Positions 7,535-63,105 of a stretch of DNA of 64,000 bases are shown here, piece after piece. The stretch covers positions 83,693 to 147,692 of the forward strand of contig CADCVH010000053.1 in NCBI GenBank assembly GCA_902806085.1. The letters are read 5' to 3'. Position 1 is the stretch's first letter. Every line of letters starts with the position of its first letter. Made by a program: the position numbers and the translations under genes. Source of the stretch: an uncultured Rubrobacteraceae bacterium. GTDB taxonomy: Bacteria; Actinomycetota; Rubrobacteria; Rubrobacterales; Rubrobacteraceae. Below the pieces are notes generated by a model, which searched no databases, had not been told where the DNA came from, and saw only the letters and a program-made list of their open reading frames with translations.

Positions 7535-8575
7535 ATGACACTAGACGCGTCACCCCAGGCCGGCCGTCGCGGCGAGGCCAACCCTTATGCCGATCTAAAG
7601 CGCCTCGTAAAAGAGGAAGGGCTGCTGGAGCGGCAGCCGGCCTACTTCGGTGGCAAGATCGCCCTTAACTCTTGCCTGTTGGCGGTGGGCCTCGCCCTGC
7701 TGCCGATCCTCGACAATACCTGGCTCCAGCTCGCGAACGCCGTTTACCTGGCCTTCGTGTTCGTCCAGATCAGCTTCCTCGCCCACGACTTCGGGCACCG
7801 CCAGTTCTCCTTCCGCGCCGCCTGGAAGAACGACTGGGCGACCCTCATCCTCGGCAACCTGGTACTCGGCGTGAGCCGCCAGTGGTGGATCGACAAGCAC
7901 AACGACCACCACGGGCACCCGAACCAGATGGACGTCGACCCCGACATAGACATCCCGCTGCTCGCCTTCGAGGAGGAGCAGGCCTTCGAGAAGCGGGGGC
8001 TGGCCCGGTTCGTCGTGAAGTATCAGGCGGTCCTGATCTTCCCGCTCTCGCTGCTGCAGTACATCAGCATGGTCCGGAGCAGCATCGATTTTTTGGCCGG
8101 CGGGAAGTCGCGGCGCCCGGTGACCGAAAGCTCCCTCATGGTGGTCCACTTCGCGCTCTACTTCGGCCTGCTGTTCCTGTTCCTGGAACCGCTGCAAGCC
8201 CTGCTCTTCTTCGCCGTCCATCGTGGGTTGTTCGGCCTGTTCATGGTCTCGGTCTTCGCGCCCAACCACAAGGCCATGCCCATCCTGGAGAACGACAGCC
8301 AGGCGGATTTCCTTCACCGCCAGGTCTTAACCAGCCGCAACGTCAAAGCGCACCCCATCACCGACTTCTGGTACGGCGGCCTCAACTACCAGATAGAACA
8401 CCACCTCTTTCCCAGGCTCTCCCGGAACAAGCTCAGGGAGGCGCAGCCCATCGTCAAGGACCTCTGCCGCGAGATCGAGATCCCCTACCACGAGACCAGC
8501 GTCCTCCAGTCCTACCGGGAGATCCTGCAGCACCTGCACGCGGTCGGCGCCCCCCTCCGCAAGGCGGTCAACTAG
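7535..8575 (+). CDS. Membrane acyl-lipid/fatty-acid desaturase
   Basis: 346 residues, ATG with GGAAAGGAAC upstream. It inserts cis double bonds in fatty acyl chains, using a di-iron centre in the membrane and electrons from ferredoxin or a reductase. All three histidine boxes are present: HDFGH (84-88), HNDHHGHPN (122-130) and QIEHH (286-290). Gln at the start of the third box is the mark of the front-end/delta-6-like and linoleoyl-CoA desaturase subgroup (DesA3-like). Four membrane segments flank the boxes (about 45-85, 165-180, 205-245). It is monocistronic. Cold or stress induction is likely for such enzymes, and a hairpin and SigB-type promoter precede it. Confidence 0.92.
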   Translation: MTLDASPQAGRRGEANPYADLKRLVKEEGLLERQPAYFGGKIALNSCLLAVGLALLPILDNTWLQLANAVYLAFVFVQISFLAHDFGHRQFSFRAAWKNDWATLILGNLVLGVSRQWWIDKHNDHHGHPNQMDVDPDIDIPLLAFEEEQAFEKRGLARFVVKYQAVLIFPLSLLQYISMVRSSIDFLAGGKSRRPVTESSLMVVHFALYFGLLFLFLEPLQALLFFAVHRGLFGLFMVSVFAPNHKAMPILENDSQADFLHRQVLTSRNVKAHPITDFWYGGLNYQIEHHLFPRLSRNKLREAQPIVKDLCREIEIPYHETSVLQSYREILQHLHAVGAPLRKAVN

Positions 8576-12130: not shown

Positions 12131-12423
12131 CCCCTTTCATCATGCCGCGACGGCCCGACCACGACGATGACACCTACCCGCCCTCACGTCGAGATGCCCC
12201 GGAGGGGCGCGAAGATCCACCCCCGAGTTTCGTGAATTATCGGACCTCGCAAACCTTCTCGCAAGCGTGCCAGCCGCACACGTGTTTCGTGTGACCGGCA
12301 CGGCGGACGCCCGGACCCCAAGATCTTGGGCGTCCCCCGCCTCCTCATCTCCCCTTGCCCCCACAAGCCGGATACCATCGTACCCGGCGGCAAAACCGAA
12401 GCAGAATTTGGTACTTATACATA

Positions 12424-12442
12424 TATGTGTAAAATACACATA
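12424..12442 (+). promoter_or_regulatory. Inverted repeat TATGT-N9-ACATA upstream of the PhaC-like gene
   Basis: TATGT (12424-12428), nine bases, ACATA (12438-12442); the symmetry here extends to TATGTGTA/TACACATA. It lies in an AT-rich island in a 70% GC genome. The same TATGT-N9-ACATA stands at 62318-62336 upstream of the phasin-like gene, both within ATATATGTG. A TATACA just upstream (12416-12421) could be the -10. The rest of 12131-12423 shows no gene. Confidence 0.55.
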
Positions 12443-12484
12443 GTGAATCGTTAAGTTCAGCAATCGTCACGGAGGTTTCGATAA

Positions 12485-12550
12485 ATGGGGTACGGCGCCG
12501 GCGAGGCGGTCTGGGGTTTGTGGGGACGACGGGGGGGTGGCCGGGTTTGA
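12485..12550 (+). CDS. Candidate 21-residue leader peptide before the PhaC-like gene
   Basis: ATG at 12485 has GGAGG at 12471-12475. The frame reads MGYGAGEAVWGLWGRRGGG then Arg-Val and stops with TGA at 12548-12550. That TGA overlaps a TTG (12547-12549) in the PhaC-like frame, the TTGA arrangement typical of translational coupling. The PhaC-like frame itself has no good ribosome site at its GTG. Confidence 0.4.
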   Translation: MGYGAGEAVWGLWGRRGGGRV

Positions 12551-13767
12551 TCCGGGAGCGTTCCTCTTCCGGTGGGACCGAGCCGGGACGGGCGGGGGGT
12601 GGCCTGCCGGACGGGTTGGGACCGTTCGGGGTCTGCAACTACGACGGTCCGGAGACGATCCGCGCCAGGAAGTACGCCACGGGTACGCACGTGCTGCTGC
12701 AGGAGGTAGGCGTCGAGACGGGGCTTACGCCCAGGGAGGTGGTCTGGAGCAAGAACAAGACCAGGCTCTACCGCTACCGGCGCCCCGGCGAGGGCAACGG
12801 GACGGGCGTGGGAAAGAGGCGTGCAGTGCCGGTGCTCCTGGTCTACGGCTTCGTGCTCAAGCCTTACGTCCTGGATCTCGTGCCCGGCAACAGCCTGGTG
12901 GAGTACCTCGTGAACGAGGGTTTCGACGTCTACCTGCTCGATTTCGGGATCTCCGGCGCCGAGGACTCGGGGCTGTCGCTTGAAGATTTCGTCCTGGATT
13001 ACATGCACGGGGCGGTGGAGAAGGTTATCGAGACCTCGGGGGCCGGGGAGGTGAGCCTCTTCGGGCAGTCCCAGGGCGGGACGTTGTGCGCCATGTACGC
13101 CTCGCTGTTCCCAGGGGGACCCCTAAAGAACCTCGTCCTGCTCTCGTCGCCCACGGAGTTCGTGCCGCGAGACCCCGGGTTGCTCGGGCTCTGGACGCTC
13201 GCGAGCCGCCACGGGGGGGCGTTCTTCGACCCGGCGGTGGTGCCACGGTTCTTTGGAAACCTGCCGACGGACTTCGCGGGCTCGCTCATCAACACGGCGG
13301 CCTCGCTGCAGGCCACCGCGGTGGGCACGGCCGCCCGGGGCGTCAGCTTCGGCCTTTACGACGCGGCCCTGCGCGAGATCCGGGCGCAGGCCGGGCGGGA
13401 CGTCTCCCTGCGTTCGTGGCTTGCGGTGAGCAAGTGGGTGGACGACGCGGCCCCCTTCCCCGGCGCGACCTTCCGGAGGTGGGTGCAGGACTTCTACCAG
13501 CGCGACAAACTCGTCAAGGGGCTGGTGAAGCTTCGCGGGCGAAAGGTGGACCTCTCGAACATCGGGTGCGCCGTGCTCAACGTCTCCGGCAAGTGGGACT
13601 ACGTCGTCCCGGCCTCCCAGACGGAGGCCACGACCATCCTCGCCGGCAGCCGGGACAAAGAGTCCATCTCCCTGGACGCCGGGCACGTGGGCATGCTCGT
13701 CGGGCCGGGCGCCGGGGACCTCTGGCCCAGGGTCCGGAACTGGCTCGCGCCTCGCTCCGGCCGCTAG
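12520..13767 (+). CDS. PHA-synthase-like alpha/beta hydrolase with Ser nucleophile
   Basis: 415 residues from GTG 12520, 406 from the coupled TTG 12547. The fold and order match class III PhaC: TPREVVWSKNKTRLYRYRRP, VLLVYGFVLKPYVLDL, then the nucleophile elbow, SGKWDYVVP (Asp360) and AGHVGML (His389). PHA synthases carry Gly-x-Cys-x-Gly; here the elbow is FGQSQGG, with Ser184 (codon TCC). True synthases use a Cys thioester to polymerise hydroxyacyl-CoA, so this may be a hydrolase or transacylase derived from PhaC, or a synthase with altered chemistry. No phaE or phaA/B lies nearby, but a phasin-like gene with the same upstream repeat does, at 62371. Confidence 0.82.
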   Translation: MGTTGGWPGLIRERSSSGGTEPGRAGGGLPDGLGPFGVCNYDGPETIRARKYATGTHVLLQEVGVETGLTPREVVWSKNKTRLYRYRRPGEGNGTGVGKRRAVPVLLVYGFVLKPYVLDLVPGNSLVEYLVNEGFDVYLLDFGISGAEDSGLSLEDFVLDYMHGAVEKVIETSGAGEVSLFGQSQGGTLCAMYASLFPGGPLKNLVLLSSPTEFVPRDPGLLGLWTLASRHGGAFFDPAVVPRFFGNLPTDFAGSLINTAASLQATAVGTAARGVSFGLYDAALREIRAQAGRDVSLRSWLAVSKWVDDAAPFPGATFRRWVQDFYQRDKLVKGLVKLRGRKVDLSNIGCAVLNVSGKWDYVVPASQTEATTILAGSRDKESISLDAGHVGMLVGPGAGDLWPRVRNWLAPRSGR

Positions 13768-62290: not shown

Positions 62291-62316
62291 CGTTTTGCGC
62301 CGAGCGGGTGTGGTAT
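62291..62316 (+). promoter_or_regulatory. SigB-type promoter candidate of the phasin-like gene
   Basis: CGTTTT (62291-62296), 14 bases, TGGTAT (62311-62316). The spacing equals that at 223, 7356 and 46353. The rest of the gap 62132-62290 has no gene. Confidence 0.4.
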
Positions 62317-62317
62317 A

Positions 62318-62336
62318 TATGTGCATTAGGAACATA
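62318..62336 (+). promoter_or_regulatory. Inverted repeat TATGT-N9-ACATA upstream of the phasin-like gene
   Basis: TATGT (62318-62322) and ACATA (62332-62336), nine bases apart, inside ATATATGTG. The same repeat and spacing stand at 12424-12442 before the PhaC-like gene. It overlaps the start-of-transcription zone of the promoter at 62291, as a repressor site would. Confidence 0.55.
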
Positions 62337-62370
62337 AGTGTAGTGACCTACGAGCACGGAGGCAAAGCCA

Positions 62371-63105
62371 GTGGCTACCACCACGAACATAGACAAGATG
62401 GCCCGCACCGCCCGGGAGATGACCGAGGCCCAGCGCGACTCTTACGAGGTCCTTGCGGAGAACTTCGCGGCCTCCCAGCGTCGGGGCGCCAGGCTGGCCC
62501 AGGACGGTCTCAAGTTCTTCAAGCTCCAGGAGGACGGCGTCAGGGCGACGCAGGAATGGTTCGCCAACGGCGTGCGGTTGCTGCAGCTTCAGCAGCGCAA
62601 CGCCAGCTTCGTCCAGGAGTGGTTGAGCGGCGGCGTCGAGGTTTTGCGGGATCAGACGGAGCACAACCTCCGCACGGCGGACGCCTTCGCGCGCAGCGCC
62701 CGCAAGCAGCAGGAGGGTTTGCAGACGCTCGGCCGTGAGTGGGCCGGGGCTTACACGGACTTCTTCTCCCCCTTCGCCTACGCCAGGCAGGGCCTGAGGA
62801 CCGCCCAGCAGGTTACCGAGCAGGCCACCCGTCAGGGCCTGCGCGTCGCGGAAGAGGCCGCCGGGCAGACCGAGAACGTTCTCCGTCAGACCGAGGAGGC
62901 GACCCACGAGGCCGAGCTCCGGACCGCCGTTCACGGCGCGCTGAAGGTCGCGGACTACGAAGAGTTGACCGTTGATGAGGTCTCCAAGAGGCTCGACGGC
63001 CTCTCCGTCGCGGAGCTCAAGAAGGTGCGCGAGTACGAGAAGCGCAGCAAGAGCCGCGACACCCTCATCGACCAGATCGACCGCAAGATAAAGGCCGCTT
63101 CGTAA
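62371..63105 (+). CDS. Phasin-like granule-associated helical protein
   Basis: 244 residues, GTG with CACGGAGGC upstream. Almost wholly helical and rich in Gln, Ala, Arg and Glu: FAASQRRGARLAQDGLKFFK, VRATQEWFANGVRLLQLQQR, long amphipathic helices typical of phasins. The C-terminal 45 residues (LTVDEVSKRLDGLSVAELKK, VREYEKRSKSRDTLIDQIDR) form a distinct small helical domain of the kind at the end of Rho-N/SAP-like proteins. Phasins coat polyhydroxyalkanoate granules. The shared upstream repeat links it to the PhaC-like gene at 12520. Confidence 0.72.
   Translation: MATTTNIDKMARTAREMTEAQRDSYEVLAENFAASQRRGARLAQDGLKFFKLQEDGVRATQEWFANGVRLLQLQQRNASFVQEWLSGGVEVLRDQTEHNLRTADAFARSARKQQEGLQTLGREWAGAYTDFFSPFAYARQGLRTAQQVTEQATRQGLRVAEEAAGQTENVLRQTEEATHEAELRTAVHGALKVADYEELTVDEVSKRLDGLSVAELKKVREYEKRSKSRDTLIDQIDRKIKAAS

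Follow-up and report, generated by a model that had tools for sequence, protein, structure and literature searches.

It has long been asked why PHA synthases use Cys as their nucleophile where lipases have Ser, and the question has been approached so far via engineered mutants. One of these, a class II synthase with a C296S substitution, reportedly made a new polyester, to judge from the title of the study, implying that Ser can polymerise. Ser has also been described in a lipase-box-like motif, GASAG, in the 'PhaC' of Streptomyces aureofaciens and in SCO7613; in the available part of that report the authors find no other triad residues, and consider that the effect may be indirect (PMC8313934). 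The literature searched, whose coverage was partial (most subscription papers fell outside it), yielded no naturally occurring PhaC that has a Ser triad. The regulatory context is best described in Bacillus megaterium, where, according to the accessible text of PMC9049629, PhaQ represses phaQ and phaP and PHB relieves the repression. In Rubrobacter, stored PHA is stated to reach as much as 50% of dry mass (abstract of PMC8146576).

Here we compare these systems with a gene, Ser-phaC, encoded on the forward strand of a 64,000-nucleotide stretch of DNA from an uncultured Rubrobacteraceae bacterium (the window). Its open frame spans positions 12520–13767 (415 aa, numbered here from the GTG at 12520). 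That GTG had been taken as the start in an earlier note on this DNA. The start is more probably the TTG at 12547 (coding region 12547–13767), because this TTG is overlapped by the TGA of a 21-aa leader ORF (12485–12550, forward strand) that has its own ribosome-binding site (GGAGG ahead of the ATG at 12485). The same overlap, with TTG or GTG as the start, is repeated at three orthologous loci (L008 and L016 by script, L074 by eye), and the leader ORF and Ser-phaC are probably translationally coupled.

The catalytic residues proposed in that note, Ser184 within FGQSQGG together with Asp360 and His389, were confirmed in the window, where the elbow GQSQGG lies at 13063–13080 (Ser184 codon TCC, 13069–13071), the codon of Asp360 at 13597–13599 and that of His389 at 13684–13686, all on the forward strand. 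Searching 60 genomes, including that of the window, and reading the loci gave orthologues with GQSQGG in 11 Rubrobacteraceae genomes. Ten are intact, 68–85% identical to the window protein and invariant at Ser184, Asp360 and His389 in the alignment; the eleventh (L013/L025) is split into two frames in a MAG contig and has Ser as well. The close relatives all carry Ser; Cys in all of them is what the note had named as pointing to a sequencing error. Besides the presence of Ser in 11/11 orthologues, the Ser184 codon varies among the ten intact genes, and because TCC, TCG and TCT all occur the residue is not one shared read error; a misread Cys PhaC was thus ruled out. Ratios of dN/dS were 0.14–0.27 (six pairs), and the gene is under purifying selection.

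Cys was the nucleophile in 38 class III-like and four sister rows from Rubrobacteraceae, in two outgroup rows and in eight plasmid-borne references. Residue counts were based on 10 Ser, 42 Cys and two outgroup rows, and omitted fragments (L013, L047, L066–L068, L071, L072) and two-part class I-like matches. When a profile of the Ser clade (A1, threshold 1e-40) was applied to 396 genomes of the phylum, 39 matched and none outside Rubrobacteraceae belonged to the clade: the three matches outside the family are Cys proteins (GWCIGG, GYCMGG and GVCQGG), and one further match within it (G373) is broken at the nucleophile motif. Plasmid records yielded 187 matches, all below 60% identity; the eight that were read, PhaC relatives from Priestia, Rhizobium, haloarchaea and Novosphingobium (some annotated merely as alpha/beta hydrolase), all have Cys. 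Four phage records match Ser-PhaC at ~26% identity.

By profile scores, phylogeny and predicted fold alike, Ser-PhaC belongs with PhaC and is no ordinary lipase, which upholds the PhaC-like identity originally suggested; the replacement of Cys by Ser is real and clade-wide. Ser-PhaC scored 253.1 bits against the NCBIfam class III PhaC profile TIGR01836, below the cut-off of 365.3, and 87.5 bits against the class I profile; the Cys paralogue of the same genome scored 387.0 bits against TIGR01836. Since the TIGR01836 score is below cut-off and a phaE neighbour is absent, Ser-PhaC falls outside the definition of a class III synthase. Among Pfam families, Abhydrolase_1 was above its cut-off, and PhaC_N and PHB_depo_C were just under theirs. 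Overall likeness to hydrolases was discarded as a sign of hydrolysis, as the best lipase-type Pfam family (PF00561) gave Ser-PhaC 48.2 bits versus 78.9 for the Cys paralogue. Neither intracellular depolymerase profile reached its cut-off with Ser-PhaC (TIGR01849, 18.5 bits, cut-off 300.75; NF050089, 23.9 bits, cut-off 300). An AlphaFold2 model (pLDDT 68.6, pTM 0.72) keeps the PhaC fold, namely an alpha/beta core plus a PhaC-type CAP, the CAP segment 231–278 being of low confidence (pLDDT <50). Foldseek matches to this model were all PhaC at ranks 1–15, and VIA-align superposed it on a PHA synthase with Z 32.2 (305 residues aligned, rmsd 3.2 Å); seven PhaC entries scored Z 29.8–32.2 and the first non-PhaC entry, a lipase, Z 24.3.

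We assessed the ancestry of the Ser nucleophile in a tree of the 10 intact Ser genes and Cys-type relatives from which the nucleophile column and L145 were omitted. The 10 Ser rows formed one clade (support 100/100), whose stem is long at 0.63 changes per column, joined to four Cys rows (L024, L026, L044 and L045; 100/97) inside Rubrobacteraceae PhaC, with Priestia megaterium PhaC placed next. The parent set is Cys-type, class III/IV-like PhaC; the possibility of a grouping with ordinary lipases, raised in the earlier note, was not borne out. Because the Ser clade is nested within Cys PhaC, Cys is ancestral and, on the present sample, the change to Ser occurred once. Cys-type PhaC-like genes accompany Ser-phaC in 10/11 genomes, the exception (G015) being a 90% complete MAG. 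Ser-phaC is best explained as a third paralogue in Rubrobacteraceae, found alongside class I PhaC and class III PhaC/PhaE.

Several active-site residues set the Ser clade apart from the 38 class III-like rows, and three of them were lost along its stem: the Trp142 of DWGxP, present in 38/38 of these rows, in the four sister rows and in both outgroup rows, is Phe or Leu in the Ser clade; Pro145 (38/38) is Ser; and elbow residue 183 is Gln where Tyr is found in 38/38. Residue 356 has changed from Ala to Ser. The His that follows the catalytic Asp in 38/38 class III-like rows is Tyr361 in Ser-PhaC, and had already been lost in the Cys sisters (Ile, Phe, Tyr and Phe). In the Chromobacterium PhaC structure, as described in the available part of PMC5509742, the His after Asp sits at the dimer interface, and the elbow position is at cavity B of the active site. 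Given these locations, the active-site rim of the Ser clade has been rebuilt. The CAP-helix residues Trp306 and Asp309, which align with the highly conserved Trp392 and Asp395 of Chromobacterium (same source), are retained, as is Tyr326. An Ala110-to-Gly change in the oxyanion loop was rejected as a mark of the clade, Gly being found also in the Cys paralogue of the same genome (L002) and in Rhizobium rows.

Upstream of Ser-phaC, a PhaQ-type operator overlaps promoter-like sequence at 12419–12446 (forward strand), with a perfect-arm palindrome, TATGTGTA/TACACATA, giving TATGTGTAAAATACACATA at 12424–12442. Similar sites precede most Ser-phaC orthologues, and a matrix built from six of these, excluding the window, scored the window operator at 41 bits. 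A pattern search of the window's own genome (≤3 mismatches) returned two matches only, the Ser-phaC promoter and a site at about C79:42634–42640 (L128 4635, G000), which lies before a PadR-family gene followed by phasin-like and thiolase-like genes; the exact palindrome core has no second copy in the genome beyond the Ser-phaC promoter. Over 107 aa, the PadR-like protein shares 52% identity with PhaQ of P. megaterium; it scored 135.4 bits against TIGR02719, just under the cut-off of 139.35. At this locus, which holds the genome's class I phaC and a phaE/R-like plus phaC pair, the sole strong site precedes the PhaQ-like gene, and none was found before the two Cys synthase genes. The regulator, phasin-like and thiolase-like genes behind this one operator, close to the synthase genes, make up a PhaQ/PhaP-type system in Rubrobacteraceae.

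Across 41 genomes the same pattern (≤3 mismatches) found 19 sites, versus three for the reversed pattern. Downstream of the 19 were nine PhaQ-like plus phasin operons, two phasins alone, six Ser-phaC genes and, in two cases (L116 1501, G011 C6; L122 1501, G021 C6), no recognised PHA gene. A matrix from the 11 non-phaC sites gave 32–44 bits at 8/11 Ser-phaC loci, including the window (the low scorers being L008, 12.9; L009, 1.8; and L017, 1.7 bits), ≤8.1 bits at all four Cys sister loci, where the operator is absent, and 24.5 bits just upstream of P. megaterium phaQ. These 11 sites had first been located by the pattern drawn from Ser-phaC sites, and so circularity is avoided only for the P. megaterium site and for which genes lie downstream. 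The region before P. megaterium phaQ (L142 1072–1099) combines a TTGACA promoter with a palindrome, GGTGTAAATTACACAT, that resembles the Rubrobacteraceae operator. The PhaQ-type operator thus appears to be conserved across phyla, and Ser-phaC, through the operator it shares, is predicted to belong to a PhaQ-type regulon. At one orthologous locus (L010), the operator (1699) lies 1.2 kb upstream of Ser-phaC, with an ORF between them (1858–2952) that may be an inserted element.

The earlier note had proposed that Ser-phaC shares an operator with a phasin-like gene in the window (62371–63105, forward strand). The site before that gene (62313–62340, forward strand) is weak, at 16.6 bits versus 41, and although it is the second-best distinct place in the 64 kb, with a 16-site matrix it (62313/62314) is not among the best three of the window; the strong link is instead to the PhaQ-like/phasin operon elsewhere in the genome. 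The window phasin-like gene, which also resembles lipid-droplet protein genes, is 61% identical over 98 aa to a gene found directly upstream of Ser-phaC at L017, where a G+C-rich inverted repeat (by eye) lies between the two, and we claim adjacency alone for that pair. The phasin relatives resemble a lipid-droplet protein at scores below cut-off.

As had been reported, phaE, phaA and phaB are absent next to Ser-phaC in the window, and no phaE or phaR was recognised by eye among the adjoining ORFs of the orthologous loci listed; the phaE/phaR-like gene of this genome sits with the Cys paralogue. In the window a fatty acid desaturase gene (7535–8575) is separated from Ser-phaC by genes for a transporter, an Hsp20 and an OsmF-like protein. 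Elsewhere, by eye, desaturase-like genes lie directly upstream at L008 and L075, and acyl-CoA dehydrogenase-like genes upstream at L074, L077 and L078. Neighbours thus vary by lineage and none is a fixed partner. Directly downstream of the Cys sister PhaC gene in two species we observed, by eye, a 284-aa alpha/beta hydrolase (L131 4864–5718; L133 5075–5929), which may be a partner enzyme of the sister PhaC.

Ser-PhaC is a genuine Ser variant of PhaC that arose once, is conserved and has a PhaQ-type operator before its gene; as computational results, its family placement and the shared operator are firm. For its function, the arguments seem to us about evenly balanced for and against a granule-associated Ser-His-Asp acyl-enzyme derived from synthase stock that would serve as an intracellular PHA depolymerase or in chain release or transacylation, and not as the main polymerase. 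It would have originated from a phaE-less Cys-type PhaC paralogue in which Cys changed to Ser once and the rim of the active site was remodelled. The promoters of Ser-phaC and of the phasin operon are probably both repressed by a PadR protein that is PhaQ-like and responds to PHB. Should this Rubrobacter protein act as B. megaterium PhaQ does, repression would end once polymer is present, and Ser-PhaC would be made together with phasins when granules exist, and not with the synthases that start granules. The Ser acyl-enzyme may then attack PHA chains or oligomers on granules and pass its acyl group mainly to water or a small acceptor, resulting in PHA mobilisation or chain release. We infer the binding of the PhaQ-like protein at the Ser-phaC site, the granule location and the direction of the chemistry; action on granules, as had been suggested from the window, gains independent support from the PhaQ-type operator. 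Deacylation by water, the usual course for Ser alpha/beta-hydrolases, is favoured, though the enzyme may also transacylate or even polymerise. Hydrolysis is more likely than polymerisation, since the nucleophile is Ser, hallmarks of synthases have been lost and the mode of regulation fits, although no one of these points is decisive. We dropped the argument that a depolymerase slot is vacant in these genomes (TIGR01849 above cut-off in 0/41, with four weak matches), because NF050089 likewise gave nothing above cut-off in 14/14 control genomes and is uninformative, and because many depolymerase-like hydrolases are listed for Rubrobacter by another database in the accessible part of PMC8146576.

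Other explanations fit parts of the same evidence. Ser-PhaC could be a true PHA synthase that uses Ser for Cys, perhaps with other monomers or towards short oligomers, and that works with phasins instead of PhaE. The model retains the PhaC fold and CAP, Trp306, Asp309 and Tyr326 are kept (residue roles as given in the available part of PMC5509742), and the engineered Cys-to-Ser class II enzyme is titled as making new polyester. We nevertheless think such a synthase rather unlikely, given that Trp142, Pro145 and His361 are changed though kept in 38/38 class III-like rows, that the gene is an addition to Cys-type PhaC-like genes in 10/11 genomes, and that its operator is absent before Cys synthases. 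Ser-PhaC might also serve granule or lipid metabolism as a transacylase or thioesterase that moves acyl groups among hydroxyacyl-CoA, PHA chain ends and lipids; such a role would suit the desaturase and acyl-CoA dehydrogenase-like genes found nearby and the lipid-droplet likeness (below cut-off) of the phasin relatives. These neighbours depend on lineage, however, and the operator shared with phasin and PhaQ genes is the sole widely common link, which leaves this alternative improbable.

It is more doubtful still that Ser-PhaC is a catalytically dead or weak paralogue acting as a granule binder or regulator that partners an active synthase. In its favour, Ser-PhaC is an extra paralogue beside active-type synthases, and an inactive PHB synthase linked to phaC2 has been reported in Bradyrhizobium (PMC9049629, available part); against it, the whole triad is invariant, Ser can serve as a nucleophile where Ala could not, and dN/dS lies in the range given above. 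We give hardly any weight to an ordinary lipase or esterase unrelated to PHA, or to a misread Cys gene. GxSxGG is the usual Ser-hydrolase elbow, but profile scores, tree and model fold rule out the former, and Ser in all 11 orthologues through different codons speaks against the latter. The granule-associated acyl-enzyme, which would open or release PHA chains, is the best fit for an additional enzyme that keeps the PhaC fold, has a complete Ser-His-Asp triad and lacks hallmarks of synthases. We tentatively entertain a bolder version, though we lean slightly against it, in which a synthase has undergone a natural switch of direction into a Ser-dependent granule-bound PHA depolymerase (or a Ser polymerase), by one Cys-to-Ser change and remodelling of the rim, under the polymer-sensing PhaQ. 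A single fold would thereby serve both synthesis and breakdown of PHA within one cell, and the series from Cys class III through Cys sister to Ser clade would record the steps. Ser-PhaC may also supply a PHA-mobilising enzyme in Rubrobacter. Because the Ser clade is a natural one that retains its triad and has both close Cys sisters and a conserved operator, the question of Cys versus Ser can be tested directly by exchanging single residues between existing enzymes.

Compared with described systems, Ser-PhaC resembles class III PhaC (TIGR01836) in best profile, fold, catalytic Asp and His and catalytic-subunit length, and differs in its Ser, sub-cut-off score, lack of a PhaE neighbour, altered Trp142, Pro145 and His361, and N-terminal extension. 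Its closest relatives are the phaE-less Cys paralogues (L024, L026, L044 and L045; 52–54% identical), which share an N-terminal segment at about residues 42–48 and the loss of the His after Asp; unlike Ser-PhaC, they have a Cys nucleophile, keep Trp142 and lack the PhaQ-type operator at 4/4 loci. The 'PhaC' of S. aureofaciens and SCO7613, likened by description alone, share Ser with it and are unlike it in having GASAG without a triad. Intracellular PHB depolymerases (TIGR01849; NF050089, which we take to be an alpha/beta-hydrolase family with a Ser elbow; and Bacillus thuringiensis PhaZ, 8ynv) correspond to the proposed function, although their profiles fall far short of the cut-offs as given above; PhaZ is likewise an alpha/beta-hydrolase with a Ser elbow, and ranked below all PhaC as a Foldseek match. 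With the PhaQ/PhaP regulon of B. (Priestia) megaterium, Rubrobacteraceae share a PhaQ-like regulator (52% identical), the phaQ–phasin order and the operator before phaQ; unlike that regulon, the Rubrobacteraceae operator also precedes a PhaC paralogue, and Ser-phaC would thereby extend the PhaQ-type regulon to a member of the PhaC family.
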